The position numbers were made by a program, and so were the translations under genes. Below, in pieces: positions 3,524-31,346 of a stretch of DNA of 64,000 bases. The stretch comes from Paracoccaceae bacterium (GTDB lineage Bacteria; Pseudomonadota; Alphaproteobacteria; Rhodobacterales; Rhodobacteraceae). The notes under the pieces are model-generated. The model saw only the letters and a list, made by a program, of their open reading frames with translations. It searched no databases and was not told where the DNA came from. The stretch is from positions 62,001-126,000 of the forward strand of contig JAMWZC010000004.1 of NCBI GenBank assembly GCA_024304985.1. Reading direction: 5' to 3'. How positions within the stretch are numbered: position 1 is the first letter of the stretch; the number at the start of each line of letters is the position of its first letter.

Positions 3524-3716
3524 GCGTCACATTTTTTAATCATACTGTAGATACAAAAGGCTATCGATGCGCAATGTGAGTTGGCAATTGAAAGCTGTCA
3601 TCAAGAGCGCAAGTCACCACTTATCTCGCATCCAAATGATGACATCTTATTGTCTTTTTAATGCCAAAATGAATGAGTACTTTTTCTATAAATTCGCTCG
3701 AATTTAATTCTTATCT

Positions 3717-13052: not shown

Positions 13053-13967
13053 TCAGAATTGCAGCTTGGGAGACAGGAAGGCAGAGGAAAAATACGACTT
13101 GAGCGCCTTCATCGCAGGAGTCAGCGCCGTGGCACGATTGAAGGCAAGGCCCACATCCATCGTGGGCACCTCAACATCCGTGGACACTGTTTCGATGCGC
13201 CGCCCCTCCAGTGACCAAGGGCGATATACCATGTCCGACAGAATCGTGACCCCCTGCCCGTTGGCGACAAGCGAACGCACGGCCTCAACAGAAGAGGTGC
13301 GAAGCTTGATGTTCGGATGGGCATTGTAGCGGTTCCAGTATTTCATGCTCGAATGAGCCGCTTCGTCCACGGTCAGCATCACGTAGGGCTCCTGCGCGAT
13401 CCGGCTCAACGGCACCTCTCCGCCATCACAGAAAGGGTGACCGGCGGGCACCCAGACACGCCGGGGTGATTTTAGCAGCGTCAGCGTTTCGATCCCCTCG
13501 CGGTTGATATTGGAGGTAAGCGCGACGGCCATGTCAATCTGGCCGCGCAACAGCTGTTCCTCAATGCTTTGGCGGTTCAACTCGACGATCCGTATTTCCA
13601 TGCGCGGGTAGAGCTGAGACAAACGACCTAGATGATAGGGAAGGAAGTAGCCGATGACCGTATAGGTAGCCGCAACTGTCAGCGCTCCGCCGATATCCGA
13701 CTCGCCACGATCGATCTGATGTGCGGCATCCACCTTTTCCAGGATATCACGCGCCACCTGCAGAAATTCGCGCCCAGCCTTGGTCAATTCCATGCCTTGC
13801 GCCCGCCGCTCGAAAAGCGTGACGCCCAGAATTGCCTCAAGTTCACGCACTGATCCTGTCACGGAAGATTGCGAAATGGACAGAAGTTTGGCCGCACGAC
13901 TGACCTGCCCAGTGTCCGCCGTCGCGACAAAGTACTTCAAGTGCTTGAAATTCATAAGCTTACTCAC
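13053..13967 (-). CDS. LysR-family transcriptional regulator
   Basis: 304 aa: N-terminal winged helix-turn-helix (MNFKHLKYFVATADTGQVSRA, with SISQSSVTGSVRELE as the recognition region) and a C-terminal periplasmic-binding-like effector domain. It is divergently transcribed from pxpA, with only 122 bases between the starts, and a perfect dyad (13991-14013) lies in that gap, so it very probably controls the pxpA-pxpC operon and itself. The start could be the first Met or the second (MNFK) four codons later. Confidence 0.9.
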   Translation of the reverse strand: MSKLMNFKHLKYFVATADTGQVSRAAKLLSISQSSVTGSVRELEAILGVTLFERRAQGMELTKAGREFLQVARDILEKVDAAHQIDRGESDIGGALTVAATYTVIGYFLPYHLGRLSQLYPRMEIRIVELNRQSIEEQLLRGQIDMAVALTSNINREGIETLTLLKSPRRVWVPAGHPFCDGGEVPLSRIAQEPYVMLTVDEAAHSSMKYWNRYNAHPNIKLRTSSVEAVRSLVANGQGVTILSDMVYRPWSLEGRRIETVSTDVEVPTMDVGLAFNRATALTPAMKALKSYFSSAFLSPKLQF

Positions 13968-18528: not shown

Positions 18529-19764
18529 ATGCCTGCCAATCTGCGTCATTCCCATAAGCTCGCTGCACCTGCACAAGTGAAACGGCGGGTACTCCGTGTG
18601 CGCGGCACCGATGTCACCCTGCTGGAAGAAGTGAGGCAACTGGCCGTGGCGGACCTTGGCTTCGATATCCAGCACGAGTCCCTCGACTTCCTGACCTGTC
18701 AGCACCGGGCGGCCATGGACCCGTTGAACTACGACATCTATGAGCAGTGCTTTCATAATTTGGACATCGTCTGGTACTGGGGCGCGTTACAGCCGATAGA
18801 CACGCGACGGATCCGGCAATGGGACAATATCGGCGATCTCGCCAAGGCCGGTGGCATCAGCAAATACACCTGGCACGGCCATGGCGACGCCCCGGTTCGC
18901 AAACTCTATGTCCAGCCGGACGGCACATTGGGCCAGCAACCTATGCCAATGATCAGCATGTTGCCGACAGCCCATAACGTCGACAGTTTCGGCTTTGACC
19001 GCCGCCTGTTCGGGGACGAAGGACCCGAAGGCTCAAGCTGGGCCTGGCTTCTGGACCGGCGGGCGCGCGGGAGGATCGCGCTTGTGGACGAGCCCGCAAT
19101 CGGGATTTTTGATGCGGCTCTTGCTGCAGAGGCGAACGGTGACCTGACGTTTCAGGATATCGGCAACATGACTGTAGACGAGATCGACAGCCTCATGGCC
19201 CTGCTGGAGACATTGCGGCAGCAGGGGTTCTTTGTCGGCAGTTGGGTGTCGCCCGACCAGGCCGAGGCGCTTGTGCGCGCCGACCGGGTTTCAGTTCAAA
19301 GCATGTGGTCCCCCTCCTACGGCAATCTCGGGCATATGCAGGGCGTCTTCTGTGAAAGCGTTCCCCGCGAAGGGTATCGCGCTTGGCACGGCGGCGCCTC
19401 TCTCGCGCGGCACTTGTCCGGCAGCCAATTGGACATAGCCTATGACTACCTTAATTGGTGGCTAGCCGGTCCAGCGGGGGCCGTGATGGCGCGTCAAGGG
19501 CATTATATGACAAATGCCGAAGGTGTACGAGAATACCTCAGTCCCGAAGAATGGGGATATTGGTATGACGGGGATGTCGCCCGATGCGACCTGAAAGGGC
19601 CCGATGGTAGGATTGTGATACGCACGGGACAGCGCCGGCCCGGCGGAGCCTACCGCGAACGGGTCAGTCGGATCGCGTTGTGGAATACAGTTATGGACGA
19701 ATACAACTATGCTGCGCGGGCTTGGAACCGCTTTATCGCGACCTTGGGAACCGCAGCACAATGA
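18529..19764 (+). CDS. Substrate-binding-protein paralogue without export signal
   Basis: About 411 aa, homologous over its length to the exported Pot-type binding protein at 25314: compare WWLAGPAGAVMARQGHY with YWLSGPPAIAVSEQGYY, and the shared ending with MDEY and a W near the C-terminus. No hydrophobic signal or Tat motif occurs at any possible start (TTG 18487, ATG 18493, ATG 18529; the last has GGGAG upstream), so the protein should stay in the cytoplasm. Its stop overlaps the next gene, a GntR regulator, as ATGA. I infer a sensor that reads an internal ligand and acts with that regulator. The family's normal job is periplasmic ligand capture for an ABC importer. Confidence 0.8.
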   Translation: MPANLRHSHKLAAPAQVKRRVLRVRGTDVTLLEEVRQLAVADLGFDIQHESLDFLTCQHRAAMDPLNYDIYEQCFHNLDIVWYWGALQPIDTRRIRQWDNIGDLAKAGGISKYTWHGHGDAPVRKLYVQPDGTLGQQPMPMISMLPTAHNVDSFGFDRRLFGDEGPEGSSWAWLLDRRARGRIALVDEPAIGIFDAALAAEANGDLTFQDIGNMTVDEIDSLMALLETLRQQGFFVGSWVSPDQAEALVRADRVSVQSMWSPSYGNLGHMQGVFCESVPREGYRAWHGGASLARHLSGSQLDIAYDYLNWWLAGPAGAVMARQGHYMTNAEGVREYLSPEEWGYWYDGDVARCDLKGPDGRIVIRTGQRRPGGAYRERVSRIALWNTVMDEYNYAARAWNRFIATLGTAAQ

Positions 19765-20744
19765 CCGCAATGCCCAATAGCCCAGGTCAGGAGCCTTTAT
19801 ACGAAACCATCAGCCGGGTATTGCGGCACAACATCGTGTCGGGCCGCTTGCCCAACGGGCTTGTTCTGATCGAAGGCCCGATCGCCAAGCTGATGCAGAC
19901 CAGCCGCGCCCCGGTTCAGGCGTCGCTACGGATGCTGAGCGCCGAGGGCCTGATTCATCGGTTCCGGGGGCGTGGCTACCTGGTCGGACAACCATCGCCC
20001 AGCCTCACACCCATCCGAAAGGCACTTGAAGAGTTTGATTTCGACATTCCACCCACCTCGCGCTCTGCGTTGGCCGTGCGGGGGACATGGCTCCGGGTCT
20101 ATGATAAGGTTGAAGCGGAGATCGCCGCCTGCCAGATATTCGGTGAATTCCGGGTGATTGAGACCGAACTGGCAAATCATCTCGGCGTCAGCCGCACTGT
20201 CGCCCGGGATGTCCTGAGCCGCCTGAACGAACGTGGGCTGGTGCGCAAGGGCGCAACTTCGCATTGGCTCGCGGGGCCGCTCACCGCCCGGACACTACGC
20301 GAGAAATTCGAGTTGCGCAGCATTATGGAGCCAGCAGCCTTGCGCATGGCGGCCGATTTCATAGACCATTCGCAGATCGCGCGTATCTCTGATCAGATCG
20401 AAAGTGGCAAAGCAAAAGACGCGGCCGAACTTGAAGATGCGCTGATGCGTTACTGCCTAAGTCAGGCCCCCAACAGCGCGTTAGTGGAAATCATCAATAA
20501 CAATCGCCTGCTCTTGTCCGCAATGGACAAGGCACTCAGCGATCTTGGCCTGCCCGTGGACACGGTGGCGTTGGATCAATACGGCACCCTTTTCCATCTT
20601 ATCGGATCACGACAAATAAGCGCCTCTACCGAGTATCTGAAAGAGCATTTGCGCATCCTGTCCTACAAGAGCCTGGCTCGGCTCAAGATCGTAGCACTGA
20701 TCCCAGAAAACGAGTCGCTGCCAAAATATCTGAACCGAGTGTAA
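19761..20744 (+). CDS. GntR-family regulator with two winged-helix domains
   Basis: 327 aa from the ATG at 19761, which overlaps the upstream stop as ATGA (translational coupling). Two GntR-like DNA-binding domains are visible: residues about 10-75 (LYETISRVLRHNIVSG, with APVQASLRMLSAEGLI) and about 110-175 (VYDKVEAEIAACQIFG, with VSRTVARDVLSRLNERGLV). A C-terminal FCD-like helical effector domain follows (LREKFELRSIMEPAALRMAA). Normal GntR/FCD proteins have one such domain and are near 220-240 aa, so this is an unusual duplication. It sits between the pxp operon and the transporter operon and is a likely regulator of both. Confidence 0.85.
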   Translation: MTAMPNSPGQEPLYETISRVLRHNIVSGRLPNGLVLIEGPIAKLMQTSRAPVQASLRMLSAEGLIHRFRGRGYLVGQPSPSLTPIRKALEEFDFDIPPTSRSALAVRGTWLRVYDKVEAEIAACQIFGEFRVIETELANHLGVSRTVARDVLSRLNERGLVRKGATSHWLAGPLTARTLREKFELRSIMEPAALRMAADFIDHSQIARISDQIESGKAKDAAELEDALMRYCLSQAPNSALVEIINNNRLLLSAMDKALSDLGLPVDTVALDQYGTLFHLIGSRQISASTEYLKEHLRILSYKSLARLKIVALIPENESLPKYLNRV

Positions 20745-20979
20745 AAATGACTATTGCACTCTTTAAGCGTTAGTTTTTTTGAGAAATTCCCCGATTTCTC
20801 CGATAATTACTACCTGAAATTGCAAAATTCCAGAATATTTGCGATAAGATGACTCTTGCTATGAAGCTCAATCAGTCATTTCATACGTTATACATTTTGT
20901 GTTCAGGCATCGTTGCAGCATCCCTCCTTGGGTCGTCCGGCGCCTACGATGTCCGTATTCACAACAAGAAGAGGGCTCT
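20745..20979. promoter_or_regulatory. Regulatory gap before the ABC transporter operon
   Basis: 235 AT-rich bases with no gene. GAGAAAT (20780-20786) and ATTTCTC (20793-20799) form a small stem. An imperfect palindrome ATACGTTATACAT near 20882-20894 resembles GntR-type operators. It most likely holds the promoter and operators for the transporter operon; no exact promoter is assigned. Confidence 0.35.
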
Positions 20980-22065
20980 ATGACGCAAAGCGACCCCATA
21001 TTCCGACTGGAGGGAGTGACGCGCAGATATGGCAATCTGACGGCGCTCGAAGGCATTGATTTCGTAGCTGAGGATAACAGCTACATAGCACTGTTGGGGC
21101 CTTCAGGTTCCGGAAAGACGTCACTTCTGCGCGTGATCGCCGGATTTGAAACGCCCGACGAAGGTCGCATTTGGTTCCAAGGGCGTGACATAACCGATGT
21201 ACCCGCCCATGAGCGCGGGATCGGCTTTGTGTTTCAAAACTTTGCGTTGTTTCCGCATCTCACCGTTTTCGAGAACATAGCCTTTGGTCTTCGTAATGGA
21301 GCGACTAAGGTGTCTGACGCCGAGATCACGGATCGCGTCAGGGAGTCCATTGACATGGTTGGCCTATCTGGTCTGGAAGATCGAAATCCGGATCAGATAT
21401 CGGGTGGACAAAAGCAGCGCGTGGCTCTGGCCCGTACGCTCGTGATGCAGCCCAAACTGGTGTTGCTGGACGAACCTCTGGGCGCACTTGACGCTAACCT
21501 TCGCGAGAGGATGCAGATGGAACTGCGCGCTATCCGCGAAAGACTTGACGTGACCTTCCTGCATGTCACGGGAAGCGAGACAGAAGCGCTGGCGATGGGC
21601 GACAGGGTAGCGGTGCTGGACGCAGGCCGGATCGTGCAATACGGCACGCCAGACGCGATCTATGACAGCCCGAGCATCTCGGACGTGGCGCTGTTTCTCA
21701 ATCGTTTCAATCTCTTCGAAGGAACCCTGAAAAACGGAATCTTCGAGGGTGCTTTCGGCGCAGTACCCGTAGCGTCGGCGCGGACCAACGAAACTGATGT
21801 TTATGCGATCCGGTACGACCGGACGCAAATATTCGACACAGATAGCTCCTATCTGCCCGGCCCTGCGCTGCCTGTCCGCTATCTGGCAAGCGAATACCTC
21901 GGATCGTCCATCATCTTTCTGTTCGAAACCGCGGACCACAAGACCGTTGAGGTTGATCATCATCTAAGCTTGGGCGAACCGCGCGATCTTATCGTCGGAA
22001 AAAATTACATTCTCTCATGGGATCCTGCACAAGCGATCGTATTCGGCAAGGAGATTACAAGATGA
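20980..22065 (+). CDS. Pot-type ABC transporter ATPase 1, degenerate H-loop
   Basis: 361 aa from the ATG at 20980 (AGAGGG upstream). Motifs: Walker A GPSGSGKTS, Q-loop FQNFALF, signature ISGGQKQR, Walker B LVLLDEPLGALD, then a C-terminal TOBE domain. Where importers of this class carry VTH followed by QxEA, this protein has LHVTGSETEALAM (near 21555-21600), so the switch histidine is replaced by glycine. It energises import together with the two permeases that follow. A second, canonical ATPase is encoded at 26612, so a heterodimer with one impaired site is possible. Its stop overlaps the permease start as ATGA. Confidence 0.88.
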   Translation: MTQSDPIFRLEGVTRRYGNLTALEGIDFVAEDNSYIALLGPSGSGKTSLLRVIAGFETPDEGRIWFQGRDITDVPAHERGIGFVFQNFALFPHLTVFENIAFGLRNGATKVSDAEITDRVRESIDMVGLSGLEDRNPDQISGGQKQRVALARTLVMQPKLVLLDEPLGALDANLRERMQMELRAIRERLDVTFLHVTGSETEALAMGDRVAVLDAGRIVQYGTPDAIYDSPSISDVALFLNRFNLFEGTLKNGIFEGAFGAVPVASARTNETDVYAIRYDRTQIFDTDSSYLPGPALPVRYLASEYLGSSIIFLFETADHKTVEVDHHLSLGEPRDLIVGKNYILSWDPAQAIVFGKEITR

Positions 22066-25313: not shown

Positions 25314-26537
25314 GTGACACACTCAAATTTCTCAAGACGTAACTTTCTAAAAACCACTGCGGGTACCGCAGCGCTGGCGGCAGGCGGAATGCCTTTCCTT
25401 GGCGCACAGCAGGCCTTCGCCGCGAACCTGGCTAACCAGGAACTGCGGACCGTGGGCCTTTCGGTGACCGTACAGGAACGTATTCTGAACGACTTCAAGG
25501 AAAAATCCGGTGTCGGCTCAGTCAGCGGCAAGGCGGACATCTTCCCCAATACACAAACAGAAATTCTTTCCGGCACCGACGCATATGACTGCTGGGAAAT
25601 CATCGGCGAGCGTCTTGCCGCGATGGTCGCCACGGACAAGCTGGCACCTGTCGCCGCCTCTGATCTGAAAAACTGGGAGGGAATCCGCGAAACCTTCACC
25701 AAGCCATCCGACCGCTGGGCGCTGAACCAGCAAATCGTCGGCCAAATTTGGGAAGACGAAAGCCAGACACGCCTGAACATGGTGCCGACGGTCTACAACT
25801 ACGACTCCATCGGCTATCGTCCTGATCTGGTGGATGCGGAAGAAGCCTCAAACTGGTCTTCACTGTTCGACCCCAAGTTTAAAGGGAAGACAGGTCTGAA
25901 CGTCGACCCTCTGATCGCTTTTGGCCAAGCCGTCATGGCCATGAACGAACTAGGTCTTCTCGAAGTGTCAAACCCTGGCAACCCGGATGCGGCCACTATC
26001 GAAGAAGCTGCAAAATTCCTGATTTCCAAGAAGAAGGAAGGACAGTTCCGCGCGCTTTGGGGCGACTTCGGCGAACTGGTGAACTTGCTGGCATCGGGAG
26101 AGATGGTCATCGCGGACGCTTGGCAGCCTGCCGTCATGGCTGTTAAGGCACAGGGGGTCGAATGCTCCTATGCCACGATGAAGAGCGGCTACCGCGGTTG
26201 GGCGATCGGGGTTGCCCCGCTCAAGACCTCACCGAACCTCGAAGCGGTTGCGGCCTATGCCGATTACTGGCTGTCTGGCCCGCCCGCCATCGCCGTGTCC
26301 GAGCAGGGCTACTACTCGCCTACCACAAACGTGAAGAACGTTATGGATGCGGACAAATATGCCTTCTGGTACGAGGGTAAGCCTTGGGTCGGTGCACCCG
26401 AGCGTGGCATTAAGGAAGGCGATCTGCGCGATGGCGGATCGTTGGAAGAGCGCGCAGCGAACGTGGCCTACTGGCACCAGTGGCCGGATGAGTACGACCT
26501 GCTGATCCAGAAGTGGGACGAATTCCTCTCCGCTTAA
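25314..26537 (+). CDS. Tat-exported ABC substrate-binding protein (PotD-like)
   Basis: 407 aa. The N-terminus carries a twin-arginine signal, SRRNFLKTTAG, then an Ala-rich hydrophobic stretch and a cleavage region near AQQAFA. The mature part is a PotD/PotF-like two-lobed binding protein. It captures the substrate in the periplasm for the permeases encoded at 22062 and 22932. GTG at 25314 has GGAGAAGAAAA upstream. Use of Tat suggests folding, or ligand loading, before export. A cytosolic paralogue is encoded at 18529. Confidence 0.9.
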   Translation: MTHSNFSRRNFLKTTAGTAALAAGGMPFLGAQQAFAANLANQELRTVGLSVTVQERILNDFKEKSGVGSVSGKADIFPNTQTEILSGTDAYDCWEIIGERLAAMVATDKLAPVAASDLKNWEGIRETFTKPSDRWALNQQIVGQIWEDESQTRLNMVPTVYNYDSIGYRPDLVDAEEASNWSSLFDPKFKGKTGLNVDPLIAFGQAVMAMNELGLLEVSNPGNPDAATIEEAAKFLISKKKEGQFRALWGDFGELVNLLASGEMVIADAWQPAVMAVKAQGVECSYATMKSGYRGWAIGVAPLKTSPNLEAVAAYADYWLSGPPAIAVSEQGYYSPTTNVKNVMDADKYAFWYEGKPWVGAPERGIKEGDLRDGGSLEERAANVAYWHQWPDEYDLLIQKWDEFLSA

Positions 26538-30087: not shown

Positions 30088-30393
30088 ATGTGCAACGCAT
30101 GCGGATTTCCCACACGTCCCGGCCACTGGACAGACGCAGGTGCTGATAACGCGGGCGATAGACTGCGCCTGCAAATGCGCCGCGCACAGATCCTTAACAA
30201 ACTTCTGAATGGCTATGGATTCAGGGCGCGCCCACCCGGACACGGGCCGGGCTTTGCGCTGTCTTCTTTTGCGGGCCGCACAGCACTCCTGCCTGACCTT
30301 GAAGCGGTCTGGCAAGAAGCCGCGCGGCAACTGGGCCATCCCATTGACCCGCTTGACCCTCGGTTCAAGGCCAGGGCCGGACCCACCTCATGA
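30088..30393 (+). CDS. Small CxxC protein coupled to a CobW-type GTPase
   Basis: 101 aa, not a family I can name. It begins MCNACGFPTRPGHWTDAGA, with a CxxC pair and a His that could bind a metal; the rest is mainly helical and Arg-rich. Its stop overlaps the next gene, a COG0523 GTPase, as ATGA, so the two are translated together. I infer a metal-carrying or target-adaptor role for the GTPase, possibly delivering metal to a hydrolase of this locus. No membrane segment. Confidence 0.65.
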   Translation: MCNACGFPTRPGHWTDAGADNAGDRLRLQMRRAQILNKLLNGYGFRARPPGHGPGFALSSFAGRTALLPDLEAVWQEAARQLGHPIDPLDPRFKARAGPTS

Positions 30394-31346
30394 TCGCCAT
30401 GCCAGACGATGGCCGGCTGCGGCTGACGATCCTTGGTGGCTACCTCGGATCCGGCAAAACAACGTGGCTGCGTCATCAGCTTTTTGAGGGTGCATTCGGA
30501 AAGGCCCATATTCTTATAAACGAAGCTGCCGAAACGCCGGTGGATGATACCTTGCTGGCGTCGCAAGCCGCCGGCGTGACAATGCTGTCGGGAGGATGTG
30601 CCTGTTGCACGGGCAAGGATGATCTTGTCGCCGCCCTACGTGCGTTCTGCGATATCCACAGCCGCCAGAAGCCCGAAGATCGCGAGACTAGTCAAATTGT
30701 CCTTGAAACGAGCGGCCTAGCCGATCCTGCCGCCATTTTGGATGCCATCCAGCAGGATAGCGTACTAGTGCATCATATCCGCGTGGCCGAGATCATCGTG
30801 ATGGTGGACGCCATGAATGCAGCCGAGCAGTTGCGTACCGAATTCTTGGGGCGGGCTCAGATCGAAGCCGCCGACCGCATCATCCTAACCAAGGTCGATG
30901 CCGTACCCGACAATGTGCTTGCCACCGTGGTCGCGACCGTGCGTCACCTCAATCCGGGTGCTCGGATTGAGGCTGCAGTGAAGGGACAGTCTTTCACTTT
31001 GCCGGACCTGCCCCCAGTTCCCCCCTATGATTTGCCCCGGCTCTCAGATGGCGGCGAACCGATACAGCCCACGAGAATCGACATCCCCGAAAATGTGGAC
31101 TGGGCGACGTTCTCCGTGTGGCTTTCCGCACTGCTATACGCGCGCGGCGATGACCTCGTCCGCGTCAAGGGCGTCTTCGAAACTCCGGCCGGTCCGCTGT
31201 TGCTGCAGGCGGTACGCAAATCCGTCCAGCCCCCGGAACTGCTCCCACGCGAGGCGGCCAAACGGCAGAACCAGATCGTATTCATCGGACGCGGATACAA
31301 GGGCGATGATCTGCGCCGATCGCTGCAGTATTTTACAGATGGTTAG
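30390..31346 (+). CDS. COG0523/CobW-family metallochaperone GTPase
   Basis: 318 aa. G1 motif GGYLGSGKTTWL; the metal-binding CxCC motif in GGCACCTGKDD; switch region ETSGLADPA; G4-like TKVDAV; and a CobW C-terminal domain starting about residue 240. COG0523 proteins insert metals (Zn, Co, Ni, Fe) into client enzymes using GTP. Here the likely client is a metal-dependent hydrolase of the operon, such as the NodB-fold enzyme. The start overlaps the CxxC gene. Which metal is carried is not visible. Confidence 0.9.
   Translation: MIAMPDDGRLRLTILGGYLGSGKTTWLRHQLFEGAFGKAHILINEAAETPVDDTLLASQAAGVTMLSGGCACCTGKDDLVAALRAFCDIHSRQKPEDRETSQIVLETSGLADPAAILDAIQQDSVLVHHIRVAEIIVMVDAMNAAEQLRTEFLGRAQIEAADRIILTKVDAVPDNVLATVVATVRHLNPGARIEAAVKGQSFTLPDLPPVPPYDLPRLSDGGEPIQPTRIDIPENVDWATFSVWLSALLYARGDDLVRVKGVFETPAGPLLLQAVRKSVQPPELLPREAAKRQNQIVFIGRGYKGDDLRRSLQYFTDG

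Follow-up and report, generated by a model that had tools for sequence, protein, structure and literature searches.

GntR regulators of the FCD subfamily carry one winged helix-turn-helix (wHTH) unit per chain and a D/E-H-H-H metal site in the FCD domain, and they usually bind a ligand of their own. In SgrR-type regulators, HTH and solute-binding protein (SBP) domains are joined in one chain, and a cytosolic SBP-like domain there serves the control of transcription. In the NspS/MbaA system, an SBP acts in the periplasm as the receptor for a signalling protein and is coupled to the membrane. In Escherichia coli, inhibition of potABCD transcription is attributed to the complex of spermidine with PotD, so that a PotD-type binding protein affects transcription; in the passages that describe this the protein concerned is the transporter's own exported SBP, and no dedicated partner regulator is named (PMC4951125). 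The locus described here, in a 64-kb stretch of DNA (64,000 nucleotides, hereafter the window), differs from all four. In contrast to PotD feedback, a separate SBP that lacks a signal peptide (SBPc) is co-inherited with a GntR protein. Where SgrR is one chain, the window encodes two, the first a PotF-like SBP and the second of GntR/FCD type. Unlike NspS, SBPc is a cytosolic protein whose linkage is with a DNA-binding protein, although the two closest exported relatives found lie beside histidine kinases. The regulator shares the GntR-type wHTH and FCD fold with the FadR-subfamily (FCD) proteins TM0439, VanR/Atu1419 and PmiR, but whereas the 50 solved relatives listed are all of at most 278 residues (alignments with the ten best span 203-237 columns), it has 327 residues and two wHTH units, and two of its three metal histidines are missing. 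No system of a cytosolic SBP with a GntR regulator was found in the literature searched, most subscription papers being outside its scope.

The window cluster consists of catabolic and transport genes, named from profiles or translations across the 64 kb (the Pot, SDR and carboxylase names come from translations and annotated orthologues). After LysR, the order is a PxpA-like protein, biotin carboxylase, PxpB/PxpC-like proteins, SBPc, GntR, PotA, PotB and PotC, followed by two SDRs, SBPp, a second PotA, an amidase, a PuuE-like deacetylase and CobW. The features referred to below are as follows.

13053-13967, minus strand: LysR, first gene of the cluster in listed order
18529..19764, plus strand: SBPc, signal-less solute-binding protein of PotD/PotF fold, 411 aa
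19369..19386, plus strand: EGYRAW motif of SBPc, residues 281-286 (alignment, conservation and HMM alignment with PotF)
19761..19764, plus strand: ATGA stop/start overlap of SBPc and gntR, 4 nt
19761..20744, plus strand: GntR/FCD regulator with double wHTH, 327 aa
19797..19985, plus strand: regulator wHTH 1, residues 13-75 (Pfam and AlphaFold2 model)
20088..20273, plus strand: regulator wHTH 2, residues 110-171 (Pfam HTH matches at about 134-164, and model)
20286..20693, plus strand: regulator FCD domain, residues 176-311 (Pfam and model), metal tetrad E-H-H-H degraded to E-M-Y-H
20744..20772, plus strand: candidate composite operator (matrix scan of 64 kb)
20879..20899, plus strand: second conserved block, likely the -10/+1 promoter region of the PotA operon and possibly a second site
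20980..22065, plus strand: PotA-type ATPase, first gene 3' of the candidate operator (synteny)
25314..26537, plus strand: SBPp, the importer's Tat-exported SBP
30390-31346: CobW-type GTPase of the same cluster

The gene content suggests that the substrate of the pathway may be a cyclic amide or a similar N-heterocycle. In Rhizobium-type clusters CobW lies just upstream of SBPc, and its position hints at a metal-dependent step, perhaps the PuuE-like deacetylase. A small hypothetical gene (about 95-110 aa) adjoins CobW at L173:16588-16920 and also at L167, L169, L170, L171, L175 and L176; the L173 protein belongs to no Pfam family.

The reading we prefer, with a probability of roughly 0.6, is that the signal peptide of SBPc was lost a single time and that the protein came to serve as ligand-binding partner to the double-wHTH GntR/FCD regulator, the pair forming a two-protein cytosolic sensor. 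It builds on computational results, namely the conserved pairing, the absence of a signal peptide, the fold, the loss of the metal site and the operator-like sites. Judging from gene content, the substrate would enter by the cluster's own carrier (PotABC, MFS, or a dipeptide- or BMP-type ABC importer), and the conserved motif suggests that the cleft of SBPc would bind either the substrate or a product of its early breakdown. Liganded or empty, SBPc would then dock on the regulator, the FCD domain with the decayed metal site being the probable place. A regulator dimer would hold a 29-bp four-armed palindrome at the catabolic or transport promoter with its four winged helices, an arrangement for which the operator has sequence support, and would let go of the promoter (or activate it) on the signal. 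A more specific version, with the odds about even, makes SBPc the obligate sensing subunit of a heteromeric GntR protein, a double-wHTH FCD repressor with a decayed ligand site whose dimer reads the 29-bp operator, the same SBP lineage also supplying periplasmic receptors for histidine kinases. If this holds, members of a large regulator family can leave ligand sensing to a distinct binding protein; that would account for FCD domains lacking a metal site and offer a modular way of rewiring regulation. Several SBPc proteins are annotated as “extracellular solute-binding protein”, and some such labels would then be wrong, the proteins being neither extracellular nor parts of a transporter. The double-wHTH subfamily with its composite operator would be a second testable point.

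The SBPc and gntR genes overlap as ATGA at the positions first reported, and the expectation that the adjacent pair would be conserved across genomes was strongly supported. A genome scan found 149 relatives of SBPc, and in 79 of the 80 genomes kept (48-97% identity) a GntR protein of the P0002 type was found; gntR lay directly 3' of SBPc in all 26 loci L003-L028. Further SBPc genomes carried GntR in 17 of 17 cases in one set and 36 of 37 in another, where presence was scored per genome rather than per contig (53/54 in total). The sole genome without GntR has its SBPc on a 6-kb MAG contig. A reverse scan of the Rhizobium johnstonii family, with at most 14 candidates scored per genome, gave a GntR match in 27 of 151 genomes. 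Close GntR homologues (E ≤4.1e-46) were accompanied by SBPc (≥40% identity) in 12 of 12 cases, on the same contig and within 12 kb, and distant ones (E ≥1.4e-40) in 0 of 15, where the best SBP matches were at 35-38% or none, those at 35-38% being classed as exported kin by identity alone. SBPc (≥42% identity) occurred in 6 of 198 genomes of the window's own family, all six with gntR in the cluster.

The translational coupling originally predicted is a feature of Rhodobacterales-type loci, where the 4-base ATGA overlap was found in 26 of 27 (the window and L003-L028, with the nearest ATG taken as start codon), but it does not extend to the Rhizobium-type clusters inspected, in which SBPc lies 3' of CobW and gntR about 10 kb away in the same cluster, divergent from PotA. 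Among 51 rows, the gene order was SBPc-GntR in 33, GntR-SBPc in 3, convergent in 3, divergent in 1 and apart in 11, figures that are not population frequencies because the rows were selected for having both genes in one retrieved stretch (near-relatives included), contain repeated records (L114 = L026 and L173 = L141, as do the metal-site counts below) and mostly omit the Rhizobiales loci L029-L081, where the genes are apart as far as seen. In the 11 rows classed as apart, SBPc and gntR were separated by 4.8-10 kb, and in 10 of these SBPc lay at most 150 bases from CobW. The two are separate genes in the window and in all 51 rows, and no fusion of SBPc with GntR was noticed. That adjacency was kept through four orientations argues for a functional tie; the clusters travel as units, so the co-occurrence is partly one of shared transfer.

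SBPc itself has no significant Pfam match, and its Agrobacterium rubi orthologue matches SBP_bac_6 above the cut-off. The best PDB matches of its AlphaFold2 model (pLDDT 88, pTM 0.86), among the 50 listed of 1207, were PotF, PotD and MotA (E 2e-14 to 1e-11). SBPc had been described as a paralogue of the exported protein encoded at 25314; the two proteins are indeed homologous (BLASTP E 2e-29, with 23% across 406 columns), but SBPc is nearer to other Tat-exported SBPs from many genomes of the window's own family (33-39%, tblastn), so “paralogue” is only loosely right. Importers of PotA-SBP-PotB-PotC type with Tat SBPs related to SBPc occur in many genomes of that family (L119-L133).

The claim that SBPc lacks a signal peptide held up. 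By eye, none was found in any frame joinable to SBPc from just upstream, nor, by eye and motif, in the N-termini inspected of SBPc-clade proteins. The RRx twin-arginine motif was present in 25 of 25 Tat SBPs and in both kinase-linked exported relatives (2/2); a loose RRx motif occurred in 3 of the 37 cytosolic-clade proteins, the 2 inspected lying in open frame upstream of the gene. Hydropathy of the N-terminus gave no separation of exported and cytosolic proteins, the first strand of the core being hydrophobic itself. For the pre-core part the values still overlapped, running from -0.9 to 1.53 in cytosolic and from 1.2 to 2.07 in exported proteins, and it is therefore the twin-arginine motif that carries the point. 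A missed signal peptide or a sequencing error in SBPc was rejected, since many independent relatives agree.

In a tree of 72 chosen rows, the 37 signal-less SBPcs formed one side of a single branch (support 96/86). Their sister group was a pair of exported SBPs from two Burkholderia-class genomes (joint clade 99/93), next to which branched the 25 Tat SBPs, most adjoining PotB/PotC-type permease genes; SBPp was far away. Two exported SBPs that are 43-46% identical to SBPc lie directly beside kinase genes, one for a hybrid histidine kinase (L198:7565-13456) and one for a sensor histidine kinase (L199:9747-16591), with no Pot-type permease match within 20 kb, and are likely periplasmic receptors. 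A search for further kinase-linked kin returned SBPs without a kinase match, most of them beside Pot-type permeases, leaving two cases in total. With one signal-less clade and an exported sister, a single loss of the signal is the simplest account, and it would have happened in a lineage where the nearest exported relatives found, few as two kinase-linked cases are, look like receptors rather than parts of a transporter.

Within the cleft motif, E281, G282, R284 and W286 are invariant in the 37 cytosolic SBPc proteins and Y283 is 97% conserved; the motif is largely common to the exported relatives too. In the HMM alignment W286 matches a conserved Trp of PotF, which we take to be W244 in PotF numbering, and the F-D that follows the pocket Trp in PotF is aligned with H-G in SBPc. 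The PotF Asp next to the pocket Trp binds polyamine. Twelve positions of SBPc, among them F75, H76, D79, E391, N393 and R397, reach at least 95% conservation within the cytosolic clade and are not common to both kinase-linked proteins, and these clade-specific positions are candidate contact sites.

The conserved cleft motif would also suit the chief rival explanation, in which SBPc is a catabolic enzyme, or a carrier of substrate or product, built on a binding-protein fold and merely encoded in the operon. Enzymes have been made from this fold before (MqnA/MqnD), and SBPc does sit inside the catabolic operon after CobW in Rhizobium-type clusters and on Enterobacterales plasmids, overlapping CobW by 4 bases in R. 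johnstonii. Against this, the 50 listed of 1207 PDB fold matches are all titled as binding proteins or transporter parts, and SBPc stays beside gntR where the catabolic neighbours have changed, as in A. rubi (L168), where gntR-SBPc adjoins an ABC importer of dipeptide type and neither CobW nor a deacetylase lies in the 19 kb covered, and in Aminobacter (L174), where the pair lies beside a BMP-type importer with no CobW in 25 kb. We consider an enzyme or carrier unlikely, while ranking it first among the alternatives.

The predicted architecture of the regulator was confirmed by Pfam, which found two GntR stretches (GntR 1.9e-20) and an FCD domain just above the cut-off (2.7e-05), and by the AlphaFold2 model, in which both wHTH units are visible (pLDDT 82, pTM 0.59). 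Regulators with no linked SBPc, in one comparison limited to GntR proteins of 280 aa or more, have the double wHTH as well, and it was rejected as a mark of the pairing for this reason; such regulators with an intact FCD metal site are found at L148-L153 and L207-L216. In the window, the metal tetrad reads E-M-Y-H. All 16 double-wHTH regulators that have no linked SBPc keep the tetrad intact as EHHH (10 from genomes without this SBPc clade, 6 being second copies where the SBPc cluster is elsewhere), compared with 12 of 63 linked regulators, the other 51 having lost it. Linked regulators formed one side of a branch (90/93) in a 61-row tree, 18 of 79 rows having been omitted as near-duplicates or repeats, and the fewest changes that explain the loss were two, each falling within the linked clade. 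Because linked and unlinked regulators belong to separate clades, lineage and linkage are confounded. The metal-site loss would fit a handing over of sensing to SBPc and is modest evidence for it, given two events, a confounded tree and 12 linked regulators that keep the site.

Those 12 of 63 also speak for a regulator that senses alone through its FCD domain, as members of this family usually do, with SBPc acting as a buffer or scavenger of the inducer and tuning the response without contact. The window regulator, however, is without two of the three metal histidines, 51 of the 63 linked proteins have an incomplete site, and a direct partner is suggested by tight co-inheritance and by adjacency kept through four orientations; sensing by the regulator alone seems to us improbable, more so than an enzyme or carrier.

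Plasmid clusters of Pantoea At-9b (L167), Klebsiella (L170), Acidiphilium (L172) and Paraburkholderia (L175) have an MFS carrier and neither PotABC nor SBPp, and keep SBPc and gntR; in a fifth MFS cluster, from Pantoea Nvir (L176), a Pot-like ABC set lies on the other side of gntR. In the window PotABC is present together with the separate SBPp. That SBPc is an ordinary importer SBP was rejected as improbable, given the MFS clusters that keep it without an ABC importer of their own. That SBPc instead serves PotABC from the cytosolic side, or is an export-independent part of transport, is very improbable, for although SBPc is homologous to importer binding proteins and shares a cluster with PotABC in many alphaproteobacterial loci, it is kept in the four MFS clusters (L167, L170, L172 and L175) and a separate exported SBP serves PotABC where present. 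The original prediction of a binding protein repurposed as a sensor thus gains support from the MFS clusters, the loss of the FCD metal site and the exported kin beside kinases, and SBPc as the partner of the regulator remains the reading we prefer.

In rhizobial gntR-PotA intergenic regions, two copies of a 29-bp motif were found (consensus AAAATGACTATTGAATACAAAAATCATTT), whose outer arms (AAATGA/TCATTT) and inner arms (TATTG/CAA.A) share a single centre. A matrix was built from 26 sites at 13 rhizobial loci, the sites being chosen by pattern (L138 gave no intergenic stretch); the dyad count of the sites is partly circular because they were picked with a near-palindromic matrix. Regulator sites had been proposed upstream of both 20980 and 14090. 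The first has sequence support, as the best match in the window was at 20744-20772 (24.3 bits; next 16.2; 20 mononucleotide shuffles ≤14.4), with the final base of the gntR stop codon as its first, upstream of PotA; upstream of 14090, there was none among the ten best matches. The second-best match (16.2 bits) is at 3647-3675, far from the cluster. Among 30 chosen loci, including the window and with near-duplicates omitted, the best site was within 400 bp of gntR in 27, compared with a maximum of 17 and a mean of 11.1 for 60 column-shuffled matrices. Scores were weak at L027, L118 and L206 (3-7 bits). At L008 and L026 the best site was the promoter block rather than the position after gntR, at L168 and L175 it was intergenic and ahead of other cluster genes, and at L082 it fell inside the amidase match, with a weaker site upstream of that match.

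The four-armed 29-bp palindrome is consistent with a dimer in which each subunit carries two DNA-reading units. Similar palindromes near gntR were found for 7 of the 16 regulators without a linked SBPc, a raw count with no shuffled control (L215 scored just 2.7 bits), and the composite operator is for this reason probably a property of the double-wHTH subfamily. The block at 20879-20899 spans the likely PotA promoter, and its pattern was found in 22 of 27 loci.
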